Shown one piece after another: positions 7,475 to 52,157 of a stretch of DNA of 52,157 nt (positions are counted from its first letter, which is position 1; every line of letters starts with the position of its first letter). Origin of the DNA: Candidatus Mediterraneibacter vanvlietii (lineage in GTDB: Bacteria; Bacillota; Clostridia; Lachnospirales; Lachnospiraceae); contig DXGZ01000044.1 in assembly GCA_019113645.1 (NCBI GenBank), positions 1 through 52,157 on the forward strand, written 5' to 3'. Position numbers and translations under genes: made by a program. Below the pieces are notes generated by a model. The model worked only from the letters and a program-made list of their open reading frames with translations, was not told the origin of the DNA and did no database searches.

Positions 7475-8224
7475 ATGTGGGAAATATTAGCGGCAGCTGC
7501 CATGGTATGTTTCGGCACTTATTATTTTCTGAATAAGAAGAAACACAGGAGAATTGCGCTGGCATGCAAGGCGTTCGCCACCGCTATGCCGGGGCTCCTT
7601 TTGATCCGGTATGCCTTGAGAACCGGACTGATCCGATTCGGCACAGTGTCTTCCGGCAGTGCCGGAGCGGCCGGGTGTCAGGAGCTGTCCGGAATATCTG
7701 CAGCCGCCTTCTGGTTTACACTGGCTGCAATTGTGTTCTACATGGCTGCTGATGTGCTGCTTGAATGCAGGTTTGTGCTTGGCGCGGTTTCCTTTGCAGC
7801 GGGGCATATTCTGATGTCAGCCGGGATTCTTCTTGGTACGGCAGATGCAGGGAGCTTTGTGGAGGCCGGCAGGGTGCGCTTTCTGTGCTTTGCCCTGATT
7901 CTGTTCTGCGTTTATGCGGGGGCGGCCTGCTTCATACTGAGGAGTTTCATACCCCATCTGAGAGCGAAAAAACTGTTCCTCCCGGCAGCGGCATATATTG
8001 TTGTATTAAGTATGATGGCTGCCTGCGCAGGAGCAGCGGGACTTCTGAGAGGAGGAGTCTCCGGAGCAGCTCTCGCACTGGGCGGGATCAGCTTTGTCGT
8101 GTCAGATGTCCTGCTGGGACAGAATCGCCTCGGGAGGAGAAGAAGCCTCGTGAAAGGCGCGGCGGTGCTGGTTCTGTATTATCTTGCGGTGTACCTGCTG
8201 GTGATCAGCTATTTAGTTGATTAG
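7475..8224 (+). CDS. YhhN-family (lysoplasmalogenase-like) membrane protein
   Basis: A 249-residue integral membrane protein with about eight hydrophobic helices. It shows YhhN/TMEM86 features: ADVLLECRFVLGAVSFAAGH mid-protein and SDVLLGQNRL near the C-terminus, where conserved acidic residues lie in helices. Characterised members hydrolyse lysoplasmalogens, but many bacterial members are untested, so the activity is inferred. The start at 7475 follows a GGGGGGAC stretch. Its last five residues, SYLVD, and its stop codon lie in the left terminal repeat of element A, so the native 3' end has apparently been replaced. Confidence 0.75.
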   Translation: MWEILAAAAMVCFGTYYFLNKKKHRRIALACKAFATAMPGLLLIRYALRTGLIRFGTVSSGSAGAAGCQELSGISAAAFWFTLAAIVFYMAADVLLECRFVLGAVSFAAGHILMSAGILLGTADAGSFVEAGRVRFLCFALILFCVYAGAACFILRSFIPHLRAKKLFLPAAAYIVVLSMMAACAGAAGLLRGGVSGAALALGGISFVVSDVLLGQNRLGRRRSLVKGAAVLVLYYLAVYLLVISYLVD

Positions 8225-8985
8225 GTTCGCTGACTTTTTGAGACGATATTTCCGAAAACAGGGGTGGCCTTCCAAAACATATTCTGCAAGGGTGGAGACT
8301 GTGTTCGGCTTCCGCTCCAGAAGCTAAGAGAAACTAAGGAGTTCCGGGGACGGACTAAAAACAGGGACAGACGGTGAGCAACTCGCATTCGCTCAGACAA
8401 TCTCACCGTCTGCCCCAACGTCCCTCCCCGGACCTCCAAGTTTCACTAAGCGTCCTCCGAAGTCAGCCGTCCACACTCTCACCCTTGCAGAAAGGTTTTC
8501 GAAATGGGGCCTGTTTTCTGCTTTATCGGCTGGGAAAGTCATCGAATAATCAGCTGAATGAAAAGCAAGGCGCGGCCGGAAAGCCTTACTATATGTAAGT
8601 CCTTCAAGCCGCGCCTTTCCGCGGTTTCTCAGCCTGTTTTGCTTCACTGAGCTTCCGACGGGAAGTACGAAGGAAGCGAAGCAGACGGTTTGGATAGCCT
8701 TTCTGAGAGCGGGGAGATGTGGGCCGTGTGACTTTGGAGGAATCCGATGGAACTTCTTAGGGGGTGGAAAAATGTTGTTAAGGGGTCTGAGGGGATTGTC
8801 TGAGCGAATGCGAGTTGCCCCTCAGCCCCCTTTGTCTTTAAACATTTTTCCAGCCCTTTAGAAGTTCCCGGATTCTGGAACGGAACACGGAACGCATCTC
8901 CCCGCTCTCAGAATACGTTTTTTTAGCTGTCTGTTATCGTTTCCTGCCCTTTTTCTGATGGGATCTCCTAGTGAACTAAATAGCT
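8207..8985. repeat. Complete copy A of a bipartite hairpin element (MITE-like)
   Basis: A 779-bp non-coding element. Terminal inverted repeats match at 17 of 19 positions (left 8207-8225, right 8967-8985). The left half is a long imperfect hairpin (8284-8490) whose loop (8376-8404) contains GCAACTCGC and GCTCAGACAATC. The right half (8703-8911) is a related hairpin in inverted orientation, with loop 8793-8819. Between them sits a GC-rich central hairpin (8567-8617). Short open frames inside have no ribosome binding sites. The left end supplies the stop of the upstream yhhN-like gene. No transposase is present. I infer either a non-autonomous mobile element or a structured RNA/DNA element. Confidence 0.85.
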
Positions 8986-9024
8986 GAACGGTTATATGTT
9001 TTTCAGTTTCTTCCTAAAAAAATA

Positions 9025-9033
9025 TGCTATAAT
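9025..9033 (+). promoter_or_regulatory. Candidate extended -10 promoter
   Basis: A TGCTATAAT extended -10 lies just outside the right end of element A, about 45 bases before the start of the next gene. No good -35 is visible. It would give that gene transcription independent of the element. Confidence 0.45.
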
Positions 9034-9079
9034 AAATATTAATATTATGAAGATCCGGAGGAATAAGGAGAATAAGAAA

Positions 9080-9850
9080 ATGGCAAACCAGACAAAAGGC
9101 TTCTGTAAATACTGTGGAAAAGAATATACGAAGGGCGGGATGCTTCGTCATCTGCCGGCCTGCAAGGCGAGAAAAGCGGTTCTTGAATCAGAAAACGGAA
9201 AAACAAAAAGCGGATATTTTCAGATCGTTCTTATGGGAAGGTATACAAAAGCATACTGGTTAATCATCGAGATCAGCGAGAACGCTACGTTGAGGGAACT
9301 CGACCAGTTTATCCGGGATATCTGGGTGGAATGCTGCGGGCATCTGAGCTCTTTCGATATAGACGGAGCCCTGTATGATGTAATGCCTTCAGAAGATTCA
9401 TTCTGGGGACCGCCGGCAAAAAGTATGGATCATAAGTTGAAAGATGTGTTAACGCCTGGGCAGACAATATCTTATGAATATGATTTCGGTTCAACGACAG
9501 AACTGGTTCTGACGGTACACAGCTATCGTGTCGGCGGACGGAGAAAAGAGAAGATTACAATCTTATCCCGCAATAATCCGCTCCAGATCGTATGCAGTCA
9601 GTGCGGGAAAAATGAAGCAAAATGGATCGATCCGCAAAAGTATTATGATGAAGCCCCCTTCTGGTGTGAAGAGTGCTTAAAAAAATATGAAGAAATAGAA
9701 GAGGTCGATGATGAATACGAAGACTGGGATGTGGAAATTCCGGAATTCTGTCTCCCGGTGTGTAACTCACCGAGGATGGGAGTGTGCGGATATGAAGGAA
9801 GCCCCAAATATCCGGATCAGTTCCAGCCGGATGTGCAGCAGTCAAAATAG
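9080..9850 (+). CDS. Zinc-finger plus PRiA4_ORF3-domain protein
   Basis: A 256-residue soluble protein. Residues about 8-28 form a C-x2-C ... H-x4-C zinc-finger-like motif (CKYCGKEY, then RHLPAC). Residues about 45-180 resemble the plasmid pRiA4b ORF-3 domain, with its YEYDFGSTTEL signature. Residues 175-215 hold two further CxxC pairs (CSQCGK, CEEC), and an acidic stretch follows. This domain family is common near mobile DNA, but its biochemical function is unknown. ATG at 9080 is chosen because GGAG lies upstream and it starts MANQTKGF. An earlier ATG at 8996 would run through the promoter. Confidence 0.75.
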   Translation: MANQTKGFCKYCGKEYTKGGMLRHLPACKARKAVLESENGKTKSGYFQIVLMGRYTKAYWLIIEISENATLRELDQFIRDIWVECCGHLSSFDIDGALYDVMPSEDSFWGPPAKSMDHKLKDVLTPGQTISYEYDFGSTTELVLTVHSYRVGGRRKEKITILSRNNPLQIVCSQCGKNEAKWIDPQKYYDEAPFWCEECLKKYEEIEEVDDEYEDWDVEIPEFCLPVCNSPRMGVCGYEGSPKYPDQFQPDVQQSK

Positions 9851-14016: not shown

Positions 14017-16763
14017 GAAATCTTCTGAGACTTTCTTTTGCCTACCTGAGATATTATAAGAAACAGACAGCTGCATTATTTGTCGGAATCCTGTTATCTG
14101 CGGCGCTGCTGACAGGAGTAGGTTCTCTTTTTATGAGCGGGAAGGAAGCTGCGAAGGAGAACGCGAGGACAGAATACGGGGACTGGCATTATGAGACGAG
14201 ATGCGATGTCCCGTGGTTTGAGGCGTTTCAGGAAGATGTGCAGAAAAGAGCAAGCGATAAGGAGAATCAGGGGGATCTGGGACAAACTGGGAATCAGGTG
14301 AATCTTAATGGAGAAGGATTCATTCTGGAAAAGTACGGAGTTGAAACGGTGAAAAAGGCAATTACAGAGCCTTTTGACATCCAGTATGTGACCGGTGATG
14401 ACGCTTATCTTGAGATGATGGACCGGGAGCTGCTGGAAGGGAAGATGCCGGAGACGGTCAACGAGATGGCAGCGGATGCGCAGACGCTTCGGAATCTGGG
14501 CGTCCGTCCGGAACCGGGCGCTGAGATAGAACTGGACGGCGAGATATTTGTTCTGTCCGGAATTCTGACAGAGATGCCGGAGAAGCTGGGAGAACTGCTT
14601 GGAGGCTCCATGCAGGTTTTCGTGAGCCCGGATCTGAATTACGGGATGAACGGAAGTTTTGTGTATCTGAAGTTTGAGGAGTACTCTCCGACATATGATC
14701 AGATCAAAGCATTTACAGATCAGTATGGTATCGATGGAAGCACGGTTGCCCGGAACAACGGACTTGCCGGATATGTGGGCGCAGACGCGGAAGCGCTGAC
14801 TCCTTCGGAAATCTTGCAGGCGCTGAAAGATCCTGTGATGGGGCTTCCTTATGTGTGGGGGAATCTGAATGAAAATGAGGTCCTGACAGAGACCGCGGTG
14901 CTGATCGCGCTGGGCTTCTTCGCTGTGTTTATCATTTACAGCATTTTCCAGGTGTCTGTGTTAAAGCGGCTGTCCCAGTACAGTGTAATGCAGACGCTGG
15001 GGATGACGGACGGGGGAACGGTCGGCGTGCTCCTTATGGAGCTGCTGATGATTTTCTACGGCGGCTACGCGGCAGGATGTGTGCTGGGCAACGGGATTGC
15101 CGCGCTGATTTACGGAAGAGTGGGAAGGATTTTTATTACGCGGAATGTATCGGTACACAGTGGCGTCAGCACAGAGGAGACTGCGTCGGTACTGTCAGTA
15201 TCGGATCTGCCGGATGCAGGGGCGTTTCATATTGATTGGAGGATGATCGCGGGAGGCGCTGTTTTCCTCATCCTCTTTCTTGTGGTAATCAGCCTGATTC
15301 TTGTAAGGAAGATGCGCTCCCTCACCCTGCGCCAGATGATCAGCAGAGATACGGAAAAGGGAAGGAAAAACAGGAAGATCTACAGTCTGAAGCACGAGAA
15401 TCTGACCGGGATCCTGACGAAACGGTTTATGTTTTCAAGGAAAGGCACTTTCATTGGGATTCTGCTCTCTCTGTCTATCGGAAGCGTGCTTTTTCTTGGA
15501 ACAGCATATGTGACGGAGAATACAAGGATCAACAACGAGCTTACTTTTGCAGCGGATGATGGACTGGGATCGGATATCCAGGTGTATGAGGAGTCGGACA
15601 GCCTGTCCGATACCATTCCGGTGCAGACAGTGGAACAGATGAAGCAGATAAAAGGGCTGGAAAGTGTTCTGCCGGTCCGGTACATGCTGGGGGAGATCCC
15701 GCTGGATGATGGAACTTTTCTCTGGAAACCATTTTATGCTGAGGTGGCGGAGGAAGAGGGATTTGATCCGGATCCGGTGATTATGGAGAAATATAATGGA
15801 ATGATTGTACAGACAGGAGAGGATGACTACAGGCTTAAGGTCAATATATACGGCTATGATGACGAGATGCTGGAAAGCCTCAATGATTATCTCCTGGAGG
15901 GAGAGATCGATCCTGACCGGATGCGCGAAGAGAATACAGTGATTATAAAAACGCTGATGGACGGACAGGGAAATTATGACGGCATCACACTGGGAGTCGG
16001 AGATACCCTGGAGATCCGAACACCCCGTGACCCGGAGCCGGAAGCGGACGTGCTGAGGTTCCTGGGAGAAGAGAATGACTACAGGACAAACGATCTTAAG
16101 ATCGCGGCGATGGCGAGCCGTCCTCTTGGAAAGGTGGAGAATTATATCGGAGATGATGGTCAGAGAGCTGTAGATATTATTATGACAAATGAGCAGATGG
16201 AGCAGAACTTCGGAGTCACGGGATATCAGACCGTCAGCATTTCACTGGAGGAGGGAGCGGATGCTGCGGCGGCAGCGGATGAACTCAGGACAATGGTATC
16301 CGGGATCAGCCGGTGTGCGGTCAGGGACTATACCGGTCAGATCGAGGCCCAGAATCTGTACCTGAACCAGCAGATCATGTTCTTCTATGGAATCGCGGCG
16401 GTGCTTCTGGGAATCAGCCTTCTGCATATCATGAACAGTATGCAGTACCTGGTGGCTGAGAGAAGATATGAGTTTTCCATCCTGCGGGCAATGGGAATCA
16501 CGGATTCCGGCTTTCTGAAGATGCTCTTAAAAGAAGGATTAAGATATGGAATCTGTGCCTGCGGGGCGACTGTGATCGTCTACTGGATCGTTCAGAAAGT
16601 ACTGTACTACTTTATGACGAAAGTGTACCTGTACCTTCATCCGCAAGGGATGATTTCATCCGGTTACCTGATCGCGGTGGCAGCGCTGGATCTGATCCTC
16701 TGCGCGGGGGCCATGGTGCTGGCGGGGAGGAAAATATTGAGGGACAGCTATTTAGTTGATTAG
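14013..16763 (+). CDS. Large FtsX-domain ABC permease
   Basis: A 916-residue permease with two FtsX-type units. A first helix (about 17-37) is followed by a roughly 250-residue extracellular domain, then three or four helices (about 290-430). A second unit starts with a helix near 480, followed by an approximately 270-residue extracellular domain and three C-terminal helices. This arrangement fits peptide or lipid export and detoxification transporters. Its substrate is unknown. The start overlaps the ATPase gene (ATGA). The last residues, SYLVD, and the stop are encoded by the left end of element B, exactly as in the unrelated yhhN-like gene. Confidence 0.9.
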   Translation: MRNLLRLSFAYLRYYKKQTAALFVGILLSAALLTGVGSLFMSGKEAAKENARTEYGDWHYETRCDVPWFEAFQEDVQKRASDKENQGDLGQTGNQVNLNGEGFILEKYGVETVKKAITEPFDIQYVTGDDAYLEMMDRELLEGKMPETVNEMAADAQTLRNLGVRPEPGAEIELDGEIFVLSGILTEMPEKLGELLGGSMQVFVSPDLNYGMNGSFVYLKFEEYSPTYDQIKAFTDQYGIDGSTVARNNGLAGYVGADAEALTPSEILQALKDPVMGLPYVWGNLNENEVLTETAVLIALGFFAVFIIYSIFQVSVLKRLSQYSVMQTLGMTDGGTVGVLLMELLMIFYGGYAAGCVLGNGIAALIYGRVGRIFITRNVSVHSGVSTEETASVLSVSDLPDAGAFHIDWRMIAGGAVFLILFLVVISLILVRKMRSLTLRQMISRDTEKGRKNRKIYSLKHENLTGILTKRFMFSRKGTFIGILLSLSIGSVLFLGTAYVTENTRINNELTFAADDGLGSDIQVYEESDSLSDTIPVQTVEQMKQIKGLESVLPVRYMLGEIPLDDGTFLWKPFYAEVAEEEGFDPDPVIMEKYNGMIVQTGEDDYRLKVNIYGYDDEMLESLNDYLLEGEIDPDRMREENTVIIKTLMDGQGNYDGITLGVGDTLEIRTPRDPEPEADVLRFLGEENDYRTNDLKIAAMASRPLGKVENYIGDDGQRAVDIIMTNEQMEQNFGVTGYQTVSISLEEGADAAAAADELRTMVSGISRCAVRDYTGQIEAQNLYLNQQIMFFYGIAAVLLGISLLHIMNSMQYLVAERRYEFSILRAMGITDSGFLKMLLKEGLRYGICACGATVIVYWIVQKVLYYFMTKVYLYLHPQGMISSGYLIAVAALDLILCAGAMVLAGRKILRDSYLVD

Positions 16764-17522
16764 GTTCGCTGACTTTTTGAGGCGATATTTCCGAAAACAG
16801 GAGAGCATTCTAAAACGTATTCTGCGAAGCCGGAGGGTATGTTCAGGGCTCCGCTCCAGGGCCTAAGTGAATCTAAGAAGTTCCGGGCATGGACTAAATG
16901 CAAGGACAGCCGGCGAGCAACTCGCTTCGCTCAGACAATCTCGCCGTCTGCCCTAACGTCCATGCCCGGAACTTCAAGATTCACTAAAACCCTTCCGAAG
17001 TCACCCTGCCCACACCCTCCGGCTCCGCAGAAAGGTTCTCGAAATGGGGCCTGTTTTCTGCTTTATCGACAGGGGAAGTCATCGAATAATCAACTGAAGA
17101 AAAGCAAGGCGCGGTCGGAAAGCTTTACAAATGGTAAAACTTCCAAGCCGCGCCGTTTCGCGTTTTTATCAGTCTATTTTGCTTCACTGAGCTTCCAGCG
17201 TGAAGCATGCAGGAAGCGAAGCGGACAGACTGGATAAACTTTCTGAGAGCGGAGAGGTGTGGGCCGTGTGACTTTGGAGGAATCCGCTGGAACTTCTTAA
17301 GAGGGTGGAAAAATGTTGTTAAACGGTGCGAGGGGATTGTCTGAGCCGCAGGCGAGTTGCCCCGAGTGCCGTTTTGCATTTAAACATTTTTTCAGCCCTT
17401 TAGAAGTTCCCGGATTCTGGAACGGAGCGCGGAACATACCTCTCCACTCTCAGAATACGCTTCTTCAAATTTTACGCTCGATTCCGGACACTTTACTGAA
17501 ACCTCTTAGTGAACAAAATAGC
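16746..17522. repeat. Complete copy B of the bipartite hairpin element
   Basis: A 777-bp copy located between the convergent permease and telA-like genes. Left hairpin 16822-17030, central GC-rich hairpin 17107-17154, right hairpin 17243-17453. The left terminal repeat, AGCTATTTAGTTGATTAGG, is identical to that of copy A, and the right end reads GCTATTTTGTTCACTAAG on the opposite strand. Stem sequences differ from copy A on both sides in a complementary way, while the loop (GCAACTCGC ... GCTCAGACAATC) is kept. The left end contributes the permease stop. The right end lies seven bases from the telA-like stop codon. Confidence 0.87.
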
Positions 17523-17529
17523 GGAATGA

Positions 17530-40344: not shown

Positions 40345-40499
40345 CTTATTTATTTTGCGTGTACTGCCAAAAGAAACCTCCGCATCCAAAGACACAGAGG
40401 TTCGTAAATTCATACTCTCGTAATAAATCTGACTCTCCTCGGTAGGCGTTTTAATCCTTACGCTTTACAGCACCTACTGTCTTCGGCAGTTGCTGTATT
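40345..40499 (-). ncRNA. L10 leader (ribosomal protein autoregulatory RNA)
   Basis: The transcript between the rplJ promoter and rplJ contains the conserved GAAGACAGTAGGTGC segment (40463-40484 region) and its partner CCTACCGAGG (40438-40449 region), the hallmark of the L10 leader. L10/L12 binding here represses rplJL. An attenuator-like hairpin follows before the gene. Confidence 0.85.
40369..40402 (-). terminator. Attenuator-like hairpin in the L10 leader
   Basis: AACCTC and GAGGTT (40375-40380 with 40397-40402) pair around a 16-base loop and are followed on the minus strand by TTCTTTT. It could terminate the leader transcript when L10/L12 is in excess. Confidence 0.55.
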
Positions 40500-40528
40500 A
40501 CAATACCACCAGAGAGCAGGAATGTCAA
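40500..40528 (-). promoter_or_regulatory. Promoter of rplJL
   Basis: The minus strand carries a perfect TTGACA (40523-40528) and TATTGT (40500-40505) with a 17-base spacer. Element C begins only about 20 bases upstream of the -35. Confidence 0.85.
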
Positions 40529-40549: not shown

Positions 40550-40902
40550 CCTGTTTTGCTTCACTGAGCTTCCGGCAGAAAGTGCGAAGGAAGCGAAGCG
40601 GATATCTTGATGAACCTTTCCGGATGAGGGGATGTGTGTGGCATGTGACTTTGGAGGAATCTGCTGGAACTTCTTAGGGGGTGGAAAAATGTTGTTAAAC
40701 GGTGCGAGGGGATTGTCTGAGCGGACGCGAGTTGCCCCGAGTGCCGTTTTGCATTTAGACATTTTTCCAGCCCTTTAGAAGTTCCCTGATTCTGGAACGG
40801 AACTTGACGCGCACATCCCCTCATCCGGAATACGTTTCTCCAAACCAGCCCGTTCCCATTCCTGGCACACTTTCCGCCTGGCTGCTTAGTGTACAAAATA
40901 GC
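40550..40902. repeat. Half copy C of the hairpin element
   Basis: Matches the right half of elements A and B: hairpin 40620-40828 with the conserved loop (GGATTGTCTGAGCG ... GAGTTGCC) and the right terminal repeat ending at 40902. It lacks the left half and the central hairpin. Its outer stem (CCGGATGAGGGGATGTG with its complement) differs entirely from the other copies on both strands. The last 27 codons of the jetD gene are encoded in it. It separates the Wadjet operon from the rplJ promoter. Confidence 0.85.
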
Positions 40903-42143
40903 AGACTCTCCTGCTCGATCTCCATCCCCTGTTCCAGGATGCACTTCTTCAGTTCTTCCAGACATCCCGCATCCATTTTCCGGAGCTTCTCGCTTTTATC
41001 GCGATCGAGCGGAATTCCTGCCCCGGCTGCCACAGCGCACTCATACGCTTCCCTGTCCATCCGGTACGGCTTCAGTTCAGGAAACAGCTTCCTCTGATTA
41101 TAGAGAAAGATCCGGATCCCGCCCAGGTCCATATCTCCCCAGTGCAGGAACTCTGTTCCCTCTTCCGCAAGGGATGCCAGGCGACCGAGGAATTTCAGTT
41201 CTTTCGGAGAGAAAAATCCGTGGCAGAATATATAAAGCGTATCCGGTCTGAAGTCCATGGATTCATAGTTCGCCTTATTTTCAATCAGCATGATCCGGCG
41301 AATCCCGGAAAGAGAGACCGGTTCGGCATGTTCCAGCGTCTGCGCGTTGATCACCGTGCCGAAGCAATTTGCAGAACTGTCGATCACATCCACATCAGCA
41401 TCCGCGGCAGGACGCAATTCTGCCCTTCCGCCATCTTCCGCACGGACCACAGAATCCGCAGAATCTGCAGATTCTTCACATATGATCCGATACACCAGCG
41501 GGCCTTTCCACTCCAAAGTCTGAGAATAGGTTTTTATTCCATGTACCCGGAGAACATCATCCTCTGTCATCCCCTCCACACAGAGGGGTGAATACTGGGC
41601 AAGCACTGTAACAACCTTTTTCTGATACTTCCGCTCAAACAGCTTCGAATCATGGAGCACAGCAGCACTGAAACGCCGTCTCCAGACAGGGGATTCCAGC
41701 GCTGCCGCTGCGTTCAGACATTGGAAGAATTTTTCATCTTCCGGATCCGGCTGTTTTACCTCCTGCCCGGCTTCCAGCCGTTCCAGAAGATTCCGGTAAT
41801 AGGACTCCAGAAATGTTCCCGCCGCATTGTCCGCCCACTTCTTCGCCGCACCGATCCGGCGCAGCTGCTTCTCGCGGGGATCTTCCATCCCGGCGCGGCG
41901 GCAGAGCGCCGGAATATCGCCGACATTGTAGTGGATGCGGCGGATATCCGTATCCATATCCCGCCTCTCCGTCCGGATCAGCCCTGCCCGTTCCAGCTCG
42001 TCCGCCTCCTGAAGGAGTGCTTTCCTGCCGCCGACCTCGCGGATCATCTTCGCGTCCACCTCAGGATGCCGCGCCCCTTCCAGTGCGCCTGACCGGTAGG
42101 CCGGACCATTTGCCAGATGAATCAGATACTCTGTCAGATTCAC
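40821..42143 (-). CDS. jetD: Wadjet subunit JetD (DUF2220, Toprim-like nuclease)
   Basis: A 440-residue protein. An N-terminal winged-helix-like region precedes a C-terminal Toprim-like nuclease domain with ENKANYES (catalytic Glu) and HWGDMDLGGIRIF (DxD). JetD is the nuclease of the Wadjet complex that cuts circular plasmid DNA extruded by the SMC-like JetABC motor. It starts with GTG, overlapping the jetC stop by four bases. The final 27 residues (from LFCTLSS to the end) are encoded by element C and are probably not native: the natural end would be near IEQESLL. Confidence 0.88.
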   Translation of the reverse strand: MNLTEYLIHLANGPAYRSGALEGARHPEVDAKMIREVGGRKALLQEADELERAGLIRTERRDMDTDIRRIHYNVGDIPALCRRAGMEDPREKQLRRIGAAKKWADNAAGTFLESYYRNLLERLEAGQEVKQPDPEDEKFFQCLNAAAALESPVWRRRFSAAVLHDSKLFERKYQKKVVTVLAQYSPLCVEGMTEDDVLRVHGIKTYSQTLEWKGPLVYRIICEESADSADSVVRAEDGGRAELRPAADADVDVIDSSANCFGTVINAQTLEHAEPVSLSGIRRIMLIENKANYESMDFRPDTLYIFCHGFFSPKELKFLGRLASLAEEGTEFLHWGDMDLGGIRIFLYNQRKLFPELKPYRMDREAYECAVAAGAGIPLDRDKSEKLRKMDAGCLEELKKCILEQGMEIEQESLLFCTLSSQAESVPGMGTGWFGETYSG

Positions 42144-51545: not shown

Positions 51546-51636
51546 AACTCCTCCAAATATTCCATAATATTCTTCCCCATTCTAACACGTGTTATCCCGT
51601 TCAACAAGGCAGGGGCGGAAATCTTTAGAATTTACC

Positions 51637-52040
51637 GCTATTTTGTTCACCAGCTTCTTTGGCTAAACATCCGAAAACAGAGAGTGTTTGCAAGACGTAC
51701 TCTGCAGAGATGGAGGATATGTTCGGGGTTCCGCTCCGGGCGCTAAGGAAAACTAACGGTTCCGTGCATAGACAAAAAGCAGGGCTGACAATGAGCAACT
51801 CACCTTCGGCTCAAACAATCTCATTGTCAGCCCTAAAGTCCCTGCCCGGTCCCGCAACTTTTCCTAACCGCCCTCCGAAGTCACCCCGCCCACATCCTCC
51901 ATCTCCGCAGAAAGGTACTTGCAATAGGGTTCTGTTTTCTGGTCTATCCAAAAAGGAAGTTAGTAACAATATAGCTGTTAGAACCAAAGGCGCGGCCGGA
52001 GAGTCTTACAAGTTGTAATCTCTTCCAGCCGCGCCGTTTT
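51637..52040. repeat. Half copy D of the hairpin element
   Basis: Matches the left half of elements A and B: terminal repeat GCTATTTTGTTCAC at 51637, hairpin 51702-51910 with the loop GAGCAACTC...GCTCAAACAATCTC, and the GC-rich central hairpin (51989-52035). The right half is absent, and similarity stops soon after. Stems again differ from other copies in a compensated way. It occupies most of the gene-free stretch 51546-52157. Confidence 0.8.
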
Positions 52041-52096
52041 GCATGGGCAATGTGTATTTATTCCCGGAGCATTATTGAAAGCGTCTCAGAACAAAA

Positions 52097-52157
52097 ATGA
52101 GGAGTCAGGGGAAGGGTGGAGATTTCCGAAGGAAATACTACCCGACCTTGATTCCTC
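52097..52157 (-). terminator. Candidate terminator at the window edge
   Basis: The minus strand from 52157 begins GAGGAATCAAGG and folds back on CCCTGACTCCTC with an inner GGAAAT/ATTTCC stem, then ATTTTTG. It could end a minus-strand gene lying to the right of the window, or belong to a longer structured RNA. Confidence 0.4.

Follow-up and report, generated by a model that had tools for sequence, protein, structure and literature searches.

The window, by which we mean the whole analysed stretch of 52,157 nucleotides from Candidatus Mediterraneibacter vanvlietii (hereafter the host), carries four elements of a dispersed hairpin repeat that we interpret, with a probability of about one half, as a giant, non-autonomous, REP/BIME-like mobile repeat. 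This interpretation is based on its hairpin units (inverted pairs in the host), its 3' intergenic site, its stop-supplying ends and its G-T pairs, and also on the lack of target duplication and of a self-encoded enzyme. It is not a member of the GTAG/CGTC REP families, since size, tag and RAYT link all fail.

Elements A and B are complete, and the layout given for both in an initial annotation of this DNA (ends, hairpin, central hairpin, inverted hairpin) was confirmed with slightly longer coordinates (Table 1). The hairpin lengths stated there, 207–211 nt, hold for both hairpins of A, where they were re-measured, and C was rightly described as a right half. The description of D as a left half copy was wrong. 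It is a longer element cut by the contig end, containing a left half, the central hairpin and the beginning of an alternative middle module. Up to the last base of the contig, D aligns with a complete 1,067-bp element of the same genome (L022), in which two left-type halves surround another middle module, and over most of its length it also aligns with a second relative (L191). The ends of B, C and D are variants of the terminal repeat of A. The upstream ORF takes its final codons and its stop from the left repeat of A (...SYLVD, then stop), the left repeat of B contains the stop of a 916-aa ORF and, at the right end of B, a minus-strand 384-aa ORF stops 5 nt away. The free end of C adjoins the region upstream of a ribosomal protein L10 leader RNA, found at 40362-40504 on the minus strand (Rfam RF00557, 75.8 bits). 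Several ORFs of at least 90 aa overlap the elements; we read them as probably either reading frames that run through the stems or the final parts of neighbouring genes, in agreement with the earlier statement that no protein is encoded. Folding against shuffled sequences, which among the four elements covered A, gave z values of −12.3 and −13.2 for its left and right hairpins (200 shuffles) and of −16.6 for the whole element folded as DNA (20 shuffles).

Table 1. Features of the four elements in the window (E-values are those of covariance model R1).
Feature	Position	Strand	Remarks
Element A, whole	8206-8986		Outermost bases of the terminal repeats included
A, left terminal inverted repeat	8206-8225	+	CAGCTATTTAGTTGATTAGG
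A, left hairpin	8282-8492	-	211 nt; tip on minus strand, 8378-8401
A, left hairpin core	8342-8438	-	E 5e-22
A, central GC-rich hairpin	8569-8616		GGCGCGGCC...GCCGCGCC; appears in whole-element fold
A, right hairpin	8702-8909	+	208 nt; tip on plus strand, 8795-8818
A, right hairpin core	8758-8854	+	E 9e-21
A, right terminal inverted repeat	8967-8986	-	CCTAGTGAACTAAATAGCTG; 18/20 bases equal to left repeat
Element B, complete	16745-17524		Between convergent ORFs
B, left hairpin core with tip	16881-16976	-	E 2e-22
B, right hairpin core with tip	17299-17396	+	E 6e-18
Element C, right half alone	40550-40904	+	Core 40675-40771, E 8e-19
Element D	51635-52157	-	Left half (core 51760-51856, E 4e-14), central hairpin and start of middle module; cut by contig end

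Both hairpins of a dimer carry the tip TTGTYTGAGC-N3/4-GCGAGTT, in inverted orientation. A second conserved non-canonical internal loop, GTTA facing TTTAG, is located about one helical turn or slightly more below the tip, and the helix in between varies freely in sequence but keeps its pairing. Changes on both sides were observed for 29 of its 33 pairs, with 242 both-side-change cells versus 82.5 in shuffled alignments. The covariation score of the helix was 0.718, compared with 0.236 after shuffling and 0.13–0.20 with the partner slid; the alignment was motif-picked and its units are related by descent, which the slid control covers in part. The covariance model R1 (97 positions, 33 pairs) was built from 25 tip-proximal units of many loci. 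Searched with filters off, it found exactly six hairpins in the window, the number previously reported, at E-values from 2e-22 to 4e-14 that are generous because the training included close relatives of these hairpins; the seventh match had an E-value of 0.47. At gathering threshold, Rfam release 15 matched the L10 leader alone in the window and tRNA alone, none of it at the hairpins, in 14 related loci. Against element A at E up to 10, Rfam gave 11 sub-threshold matches, nine of them to microRNA precursors, which appear to be chance-level matches to a long stem.

The mismatches of the stems were used to ask which strand folds. In 82 representatives, 359 G-T versus 162 A-C mismatches were found on the tip strand by a count favouring neither kind, with 65 instances leaning to G-T and nine to A-C. 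The G-T excess over the random-pair ratio given by arm composition was present in all seven groups, in left and right halves alike, and in five aligned sets 109 columns departed from a consensus pair by G-T and not A-C, versus 58 by A-C and not G-T. This bias indicates that the folded strand is the tip-carrying one, which runs from the middle of the element out towards the terminal repeat and is consequently antisense to the gene whose stop abuts that end. Regarding the tip loops, 166 of 215 instances (a few of them chance matches, many related) fell in the classes GNA (104, including triloops closed by an extra C-G), GNNA (20) or GNAB (42), all of which are unusually stable in DNA. GNRA loops of RNA type, a subset of GNNA, accounted for 11 of the 215. 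The G-T bias together with the two conserved internal loops fits RNA at least as well as DNA.

The host genome (3.2 Mb, 144 contigs) contains 78 exact tips versus none for the reversed pattern, so that the other copies expected of a dispersed element exist, and 114 terminal-repeat ends versus two in the control; these are lower bounds, and many copies lie at contig ends. In an uncultured Mediterraneibacter (BRZ_GH bin5, hereafter G075) the figures were 229 exact tips versus none and 195 ends versus one. Among the same-genus genomes searched, exact tips were found in eight of 37, host included, and were missing in 29, among which are the very contiguous genomes G001, G018 and G027. A scan of GTDB contigs returned at least 92 stretches with tips, from a biased and incomplete list of taxa. 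In the host and G075, the canonical element consists of an end, a minus-strand tip some 160 bases on, a plus-strand tip about 410 bases later and, after about 165 more, the second end. The same end sequences also bound shorter forms and alternative combinations of halves. Five loci (L011, L021, L130, L148 and L149) have ends in which the terminal repeat is present twice in tandem, at a distance of 16 bp. A unit of about 1 kb at L108:2259-3283, bounded by the terminal repeat, carries an ORF of GNAT type (named by eye) and no tip; it is possibly a passenger-carrying relative. At L125:780-2225, an insertion that looks like IS200 type separates the halves of an element and coincides with a Y1 transposase match of the same genome (G075:C15:49353).

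The position of the repeat relative to genes was best resolved in Clostridium sp. Marseille-P3244 (hereafter G070), a well-assembled genome whose ORFs were called in this analysis. Here, another terminal repeat, AAATCTGAGTTTG, encloses the same right half, and all 47 matches to this repeat (up to one mismatch) were examined, giving 20 complete elements of 244–865 bp and seven single repeats. These elements are not tip dimers, as one tip (up to two mismatches) is present in 14 of the 20 and no tip in six; according to the alignment, the other half of these elements (L280-L299) carries a different hairpin without the tip motif. At 34 of their 40 borders, the end of a flanking ORF is at most 22 nt away, and at 17 of the 40 the stop codon takes its last two bases from the start of the repeat (gap −2). 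The right border of L281 faces a stop in one ORF calling and a start in another. Fourteen elements are located between convergent, six between codirectional and none between divergent ORFs, versus 3, 39 and 13 background pairs; for convergent placement (14/20 versus 3/55) Fisher's test gave p 3.5e-8, a value overstated, as are all p values here, by the kinship of the instances. Of the 118 borders in the host and G075, a stop is faced by 52. In 40 of these, its position ranges from 16 nt beyond the border to 28 nt within it (−16 to +28), and in the other 12 it is 27–165 nt away. Such close approach of border and stop may reflect targeted insertion or the loss of spare intergenic DNA after insertion, and both fit. 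In two species (L033 and L127) the element directly follows the stop of the same gene in different orientation, at least one such shared site being present among the matches listed; recurrent insertion and rapid turnover are both consistent with it.

The repeat was also detected beyond the host genus. The search over relatives proposed in the initial annotation gave R1 matches at E up to 0.001 in seven of 106 genomes of the host's order, host included, which is a lower bound owing to strict filters. Eight of the ten R1 loci outside the host combine quite different stems with a tip that has one mismatch or none, L325 and L332 being the two without such a tip. In L345 and in L346, two tips in inverted orientation are spaced by about 280 bp (E of the weaker partner 0.003 and 0.002). 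In the 2.48 Mb of a Variovorax paradoxus plasmid (CP063167) there are just two exact tips, which lie 409 bp apart and on opposite strands within an 800-bp gap between two convergent annotated genes (R1 E 0.003 and 0.011). By arithmetic with equal base frequencies, a single tip of the pattern used for Variovorax is expected by chance about once per 200 Mb. Tip pairs were likewise found on a Parabacteroides distasonis plasmid (365 bp apart, R1 E 0.09 and 0.6) and in Bacteroides reticulotermitis (about 370 bp apart, one tip with a mismatch). Between the two Parabacteroides tips, an NCBIfam smalltalk peptide is predicted (L196:3822-3896). Exact tips were further present in MAGs labelled in their records as Mucispirillum (29), Nitrospirae (6) and Desulfobacula (3). 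The Mucispirillum-labelled copies L082 and L115 have additional sequence inserted within the hairpin arms.

A test of arm pairing supported the stems at L106, L124, L139, L235, L236, L239, L240, L241 and L251 (p up to 0.032 under a permissive null) and gave no support at L151, L158, L195, L196, L197, L198, L237, L242 and L252 (p 0.08–0.83). It likewise lent no support to the stems of the Variovorax, Parabacteroides and Bacteroides pairs, for which stem support is weak overall. Because the test was unsupportive for these three and for Nitrospirae, all four are recognised by the exact motif, to which the first three, and not Nitrospirae, add the inverted-pair geometry. Tips of Myxacorys and Nitrosomonadales were discarded as chance matches inside ORFs, as were those of Paenibacillus and of a red-deer Eubacterium MAG, which have no convincing flanking stem. 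Viral contigs gave no tips, phages 10 weak tip matches and plasmids 36 records with short tip matches, five of which were examined. With the Variovorax element as query, 316 plasmid records were matched, mostly by short pieces, and 80% coverage was reached in its own record alone.

Several approaches were used to look for traces of transposition. In the host and G075, the mean best direct repeat flanking 37 strictly complete entries (two elements being entered twice) was 1.78 nt versus 2.01 for shuffled pairings, and a looser set of 97 candidates, some of them spurious, gave 1.72 versus 1.90, so neither comparison shows target duplication. For the 20 elements of G070 the score was 2.10 versus 1.69, a value reached by 8% of shuffles, and a very short target duplication may exist in this genome. 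The initial annotation suggested looking for a full-length relative with a transposase and for empty sites, and neither was obtained. No transposon lies between the long-range ends of G070, among all 47 repeat matches; a 15.4-kb plus/minus pair of single repeats, considered as a transposon, encloses ordinary chromosomal ORFs, none transposase-like by eye. In the host and G075, where many ends are at contig ends, no autonomous copy was found among the first 100 of 114 and 100 of 195 ends, respectively. An empty site for B was sought through its neighbouring gene in 41 genomes, and in the 30 loci read there was no conserved synteny past this gene; as no empty site was obtained, we infer mobility from the distribution of the repeat.

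No mobilising enzyme was identified among the Y1 and tyrosine-recombinase candidates examined. Y1/RAYT proteins were not supported as partners: matches occur in 18 of 21 genomes, whether or not these carry the repeat, and no RAYT-type Y1 protein was found in the carriers G065 and G071. The host has a single-copy RAYT-like gene (L316:1096-1881) that lies between ORFs resembling by eye glycyl-tRNA synthetase and aminopeptidase. It has the same neighbours in three relatives, G023, G020 and G010 (L313-L315), which have no exact tip, and no tip is near the host gene, which looks domesticated. A tyrosine recombinase was discarded as general partner, one locus alone being suggestive. This locus (L139:60-3754, a Desulfobacula MAG) contains three tandem tyrosine recombinases, a CHC2 zinc ribbon and a small ORF. 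The part of the initial proposal that describes a dispersed, non-autonomous structured repeat is supported by the high copy number, the common terminal repeats, the shorter same-ended forms, the lack of a transposon between the long-range G070 ends and the strong covariation.

In one account of the GTAG and CGTC families (PMC3733652), REPs are described as dispersed extragenic palindromes, many in inverted pairs and with G-T in the stem, that lie preferentially between convergent or codirectional genes and whose ends often supply the stop codon. Like REP, BIME and REPIN sequences, the elements of the host and G075 are inverted pairs at 3' intergenic sites without detected target duplication. 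Unlike paired REPs, those of G070 have one tip or none. The units are also far larger (about 210 nt versus palindromes of 20–40 nt), have a conserved tip and internal loops in place of a GTAG/CGTC tag, which by eye is not seen in the 25-unit alignment, possess additional terminal inverted repeats and a central hairpin, and are not linked with a RAYT gene. Among the papers listed by a literature search, with subscription journals and preprints mostly or wholly outside its coverage, none was seen to describe this element.

In the REP-like reading, the host form pairs two structured hairpin units as an inverted dimer, with the central GC-rich hairpin as their junction and a short terminal inverted repeat at either end. 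Folded as single-stranded DNA (or RNA), the unit would be recognised, at its tip, by a factor encoded in trans, and this factor would copy or paste the element with no duplication of the target site. Inserts would persist mainly where no gene is touched, between one stop and the next stop or promoter, and the element ends could complete a stop codon, as in GTAG REPs. Several observations count against this reading, among them the failure to identify a mobilising enzyme or to obtain an empty site, the G070 target-repeat score, the 12 distant stops at borders of the host and G075, and the fit of the G-T bias and internal loops to RNA. In addition, the sharpest gene-end figures, those of G070, come from elements that are not dimers, and the conservation of the tip across phyla exceeds what a selfish repeat needs. 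We also propose, tentatively, that the tip hairpin, often in an inverted dimer, is an undescribed class of structured genetic element common to several phyla, whose functional form would be single-stranded DNA or RNA folded from the strand that is antisense to the gene it abuts. A widespread protein would read the tip, and local families would add their own stems and terminal repeats.

Much of the same evidence bears on a non-coding RNA, an explanation we regard as rather doubtful, in which each half would give an outward-reading RNA that folds into a long hairpin and is bound by a protein at its tip and internal loops, the copies being kept for a function at gene ends. This could be an antisense RNA of the near gene, or it could form the distal end of a transcript that reads through from a convergent gene. 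The strong covariation, the excess of G-T over A-C on the tip strand, the two non-canonical internal loops (GTTA/TTTAG and the tip) and the location at gene 3' ends all speak for it, but GNRA loops are rare and no sigma-70-type promoter was found in 8150-9080 (0.7 expected). Two terminator-like sites occur in this region (1.3 expected), before or across the left border of A, and in a test for intrinsic terminators (GC stem and direct T run) neither of them arose from a hairpin of the element. In L345 and L346 (genome G056), a hairpin that folds like an ordinary terminator separates the element from the neighbouring ORF; thus replacement of the terminator by the element is not a rule. Moreover, codirectional ORFs flank six tips in L344-L349; four of these (two in L344 and one each in L348 and L349) run antisense to both neighbours, and those of L345 and L347 are sense.

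The initial annotation suggested a MITE. A classical one, in which the elements would be internal-deletion remnants of a DDE transposon with terminal repeat CAGCTATTTWGTTSAYTA and the hairpins would be passengers, is in our opinion unlikely. Like bacterial MITEs, the elements are small, protein-free and present in many copies, with terminal inverted repeats that are clear in the host and G075 and with shorter same-ended forms, and both the L108 unit and the G070 target-repeat score, slightly over its null, would suit this origin. The MITE reading is weakened by the absence of target duplication in the host and G075, by the unrelated repeat around the same right half in G070 and by a tip motif broader than one transposon family. 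In addition, unlike bacterial MITEs, no autonomous partner was found, the long-range G070 ends enclosing no transposon, and it is the hairpins that are common to the species, within differing repeats. Mobile insertion cassettes are units bounded by terminal repeats with a passenger ORF and without transposase. The L108 unit, seen once, resembles them, and the hairpin dimers themselves are gene-free. In integrons, the attC hairpin follows a stop codon directly and folds from the antisense strand. A comparable recombination site, a bottom-strand hairpin right behind the stop at which a tyrosine recombinase exchanges genes, would agree with the folded strand being antisense to the abutting gene, with the stops at the border and with the Desulfobacula hairpin about 400 bp from the five-ORF recombinase set. 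We consider it very improbable, given that this association is a single case, that the host hairpins are inverted dimers and not directly repeated gene cassettes, and that none of the seven integrase-domain loci of the host (PF00589 search) has a recombinase trio, or element ends or tips in the flanks examined. Compared by description, the elements also differ from attC in their longer stems and in having neither integrase association nor cassette array.

With more than 200 hairpin tips near gene ends in one gut bacterium, the repeat can shape 3' ends and genome rearrangement. It can also shape genome assembly, as many contig ends fall inside copies. The tip motif and R1 now make it searchable, and the strand-specific folding provides a direct experimental handle. 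If one conserved protein reads the tip across phyla, this would point to an unknown system of mobility or nucleic-acid binding.
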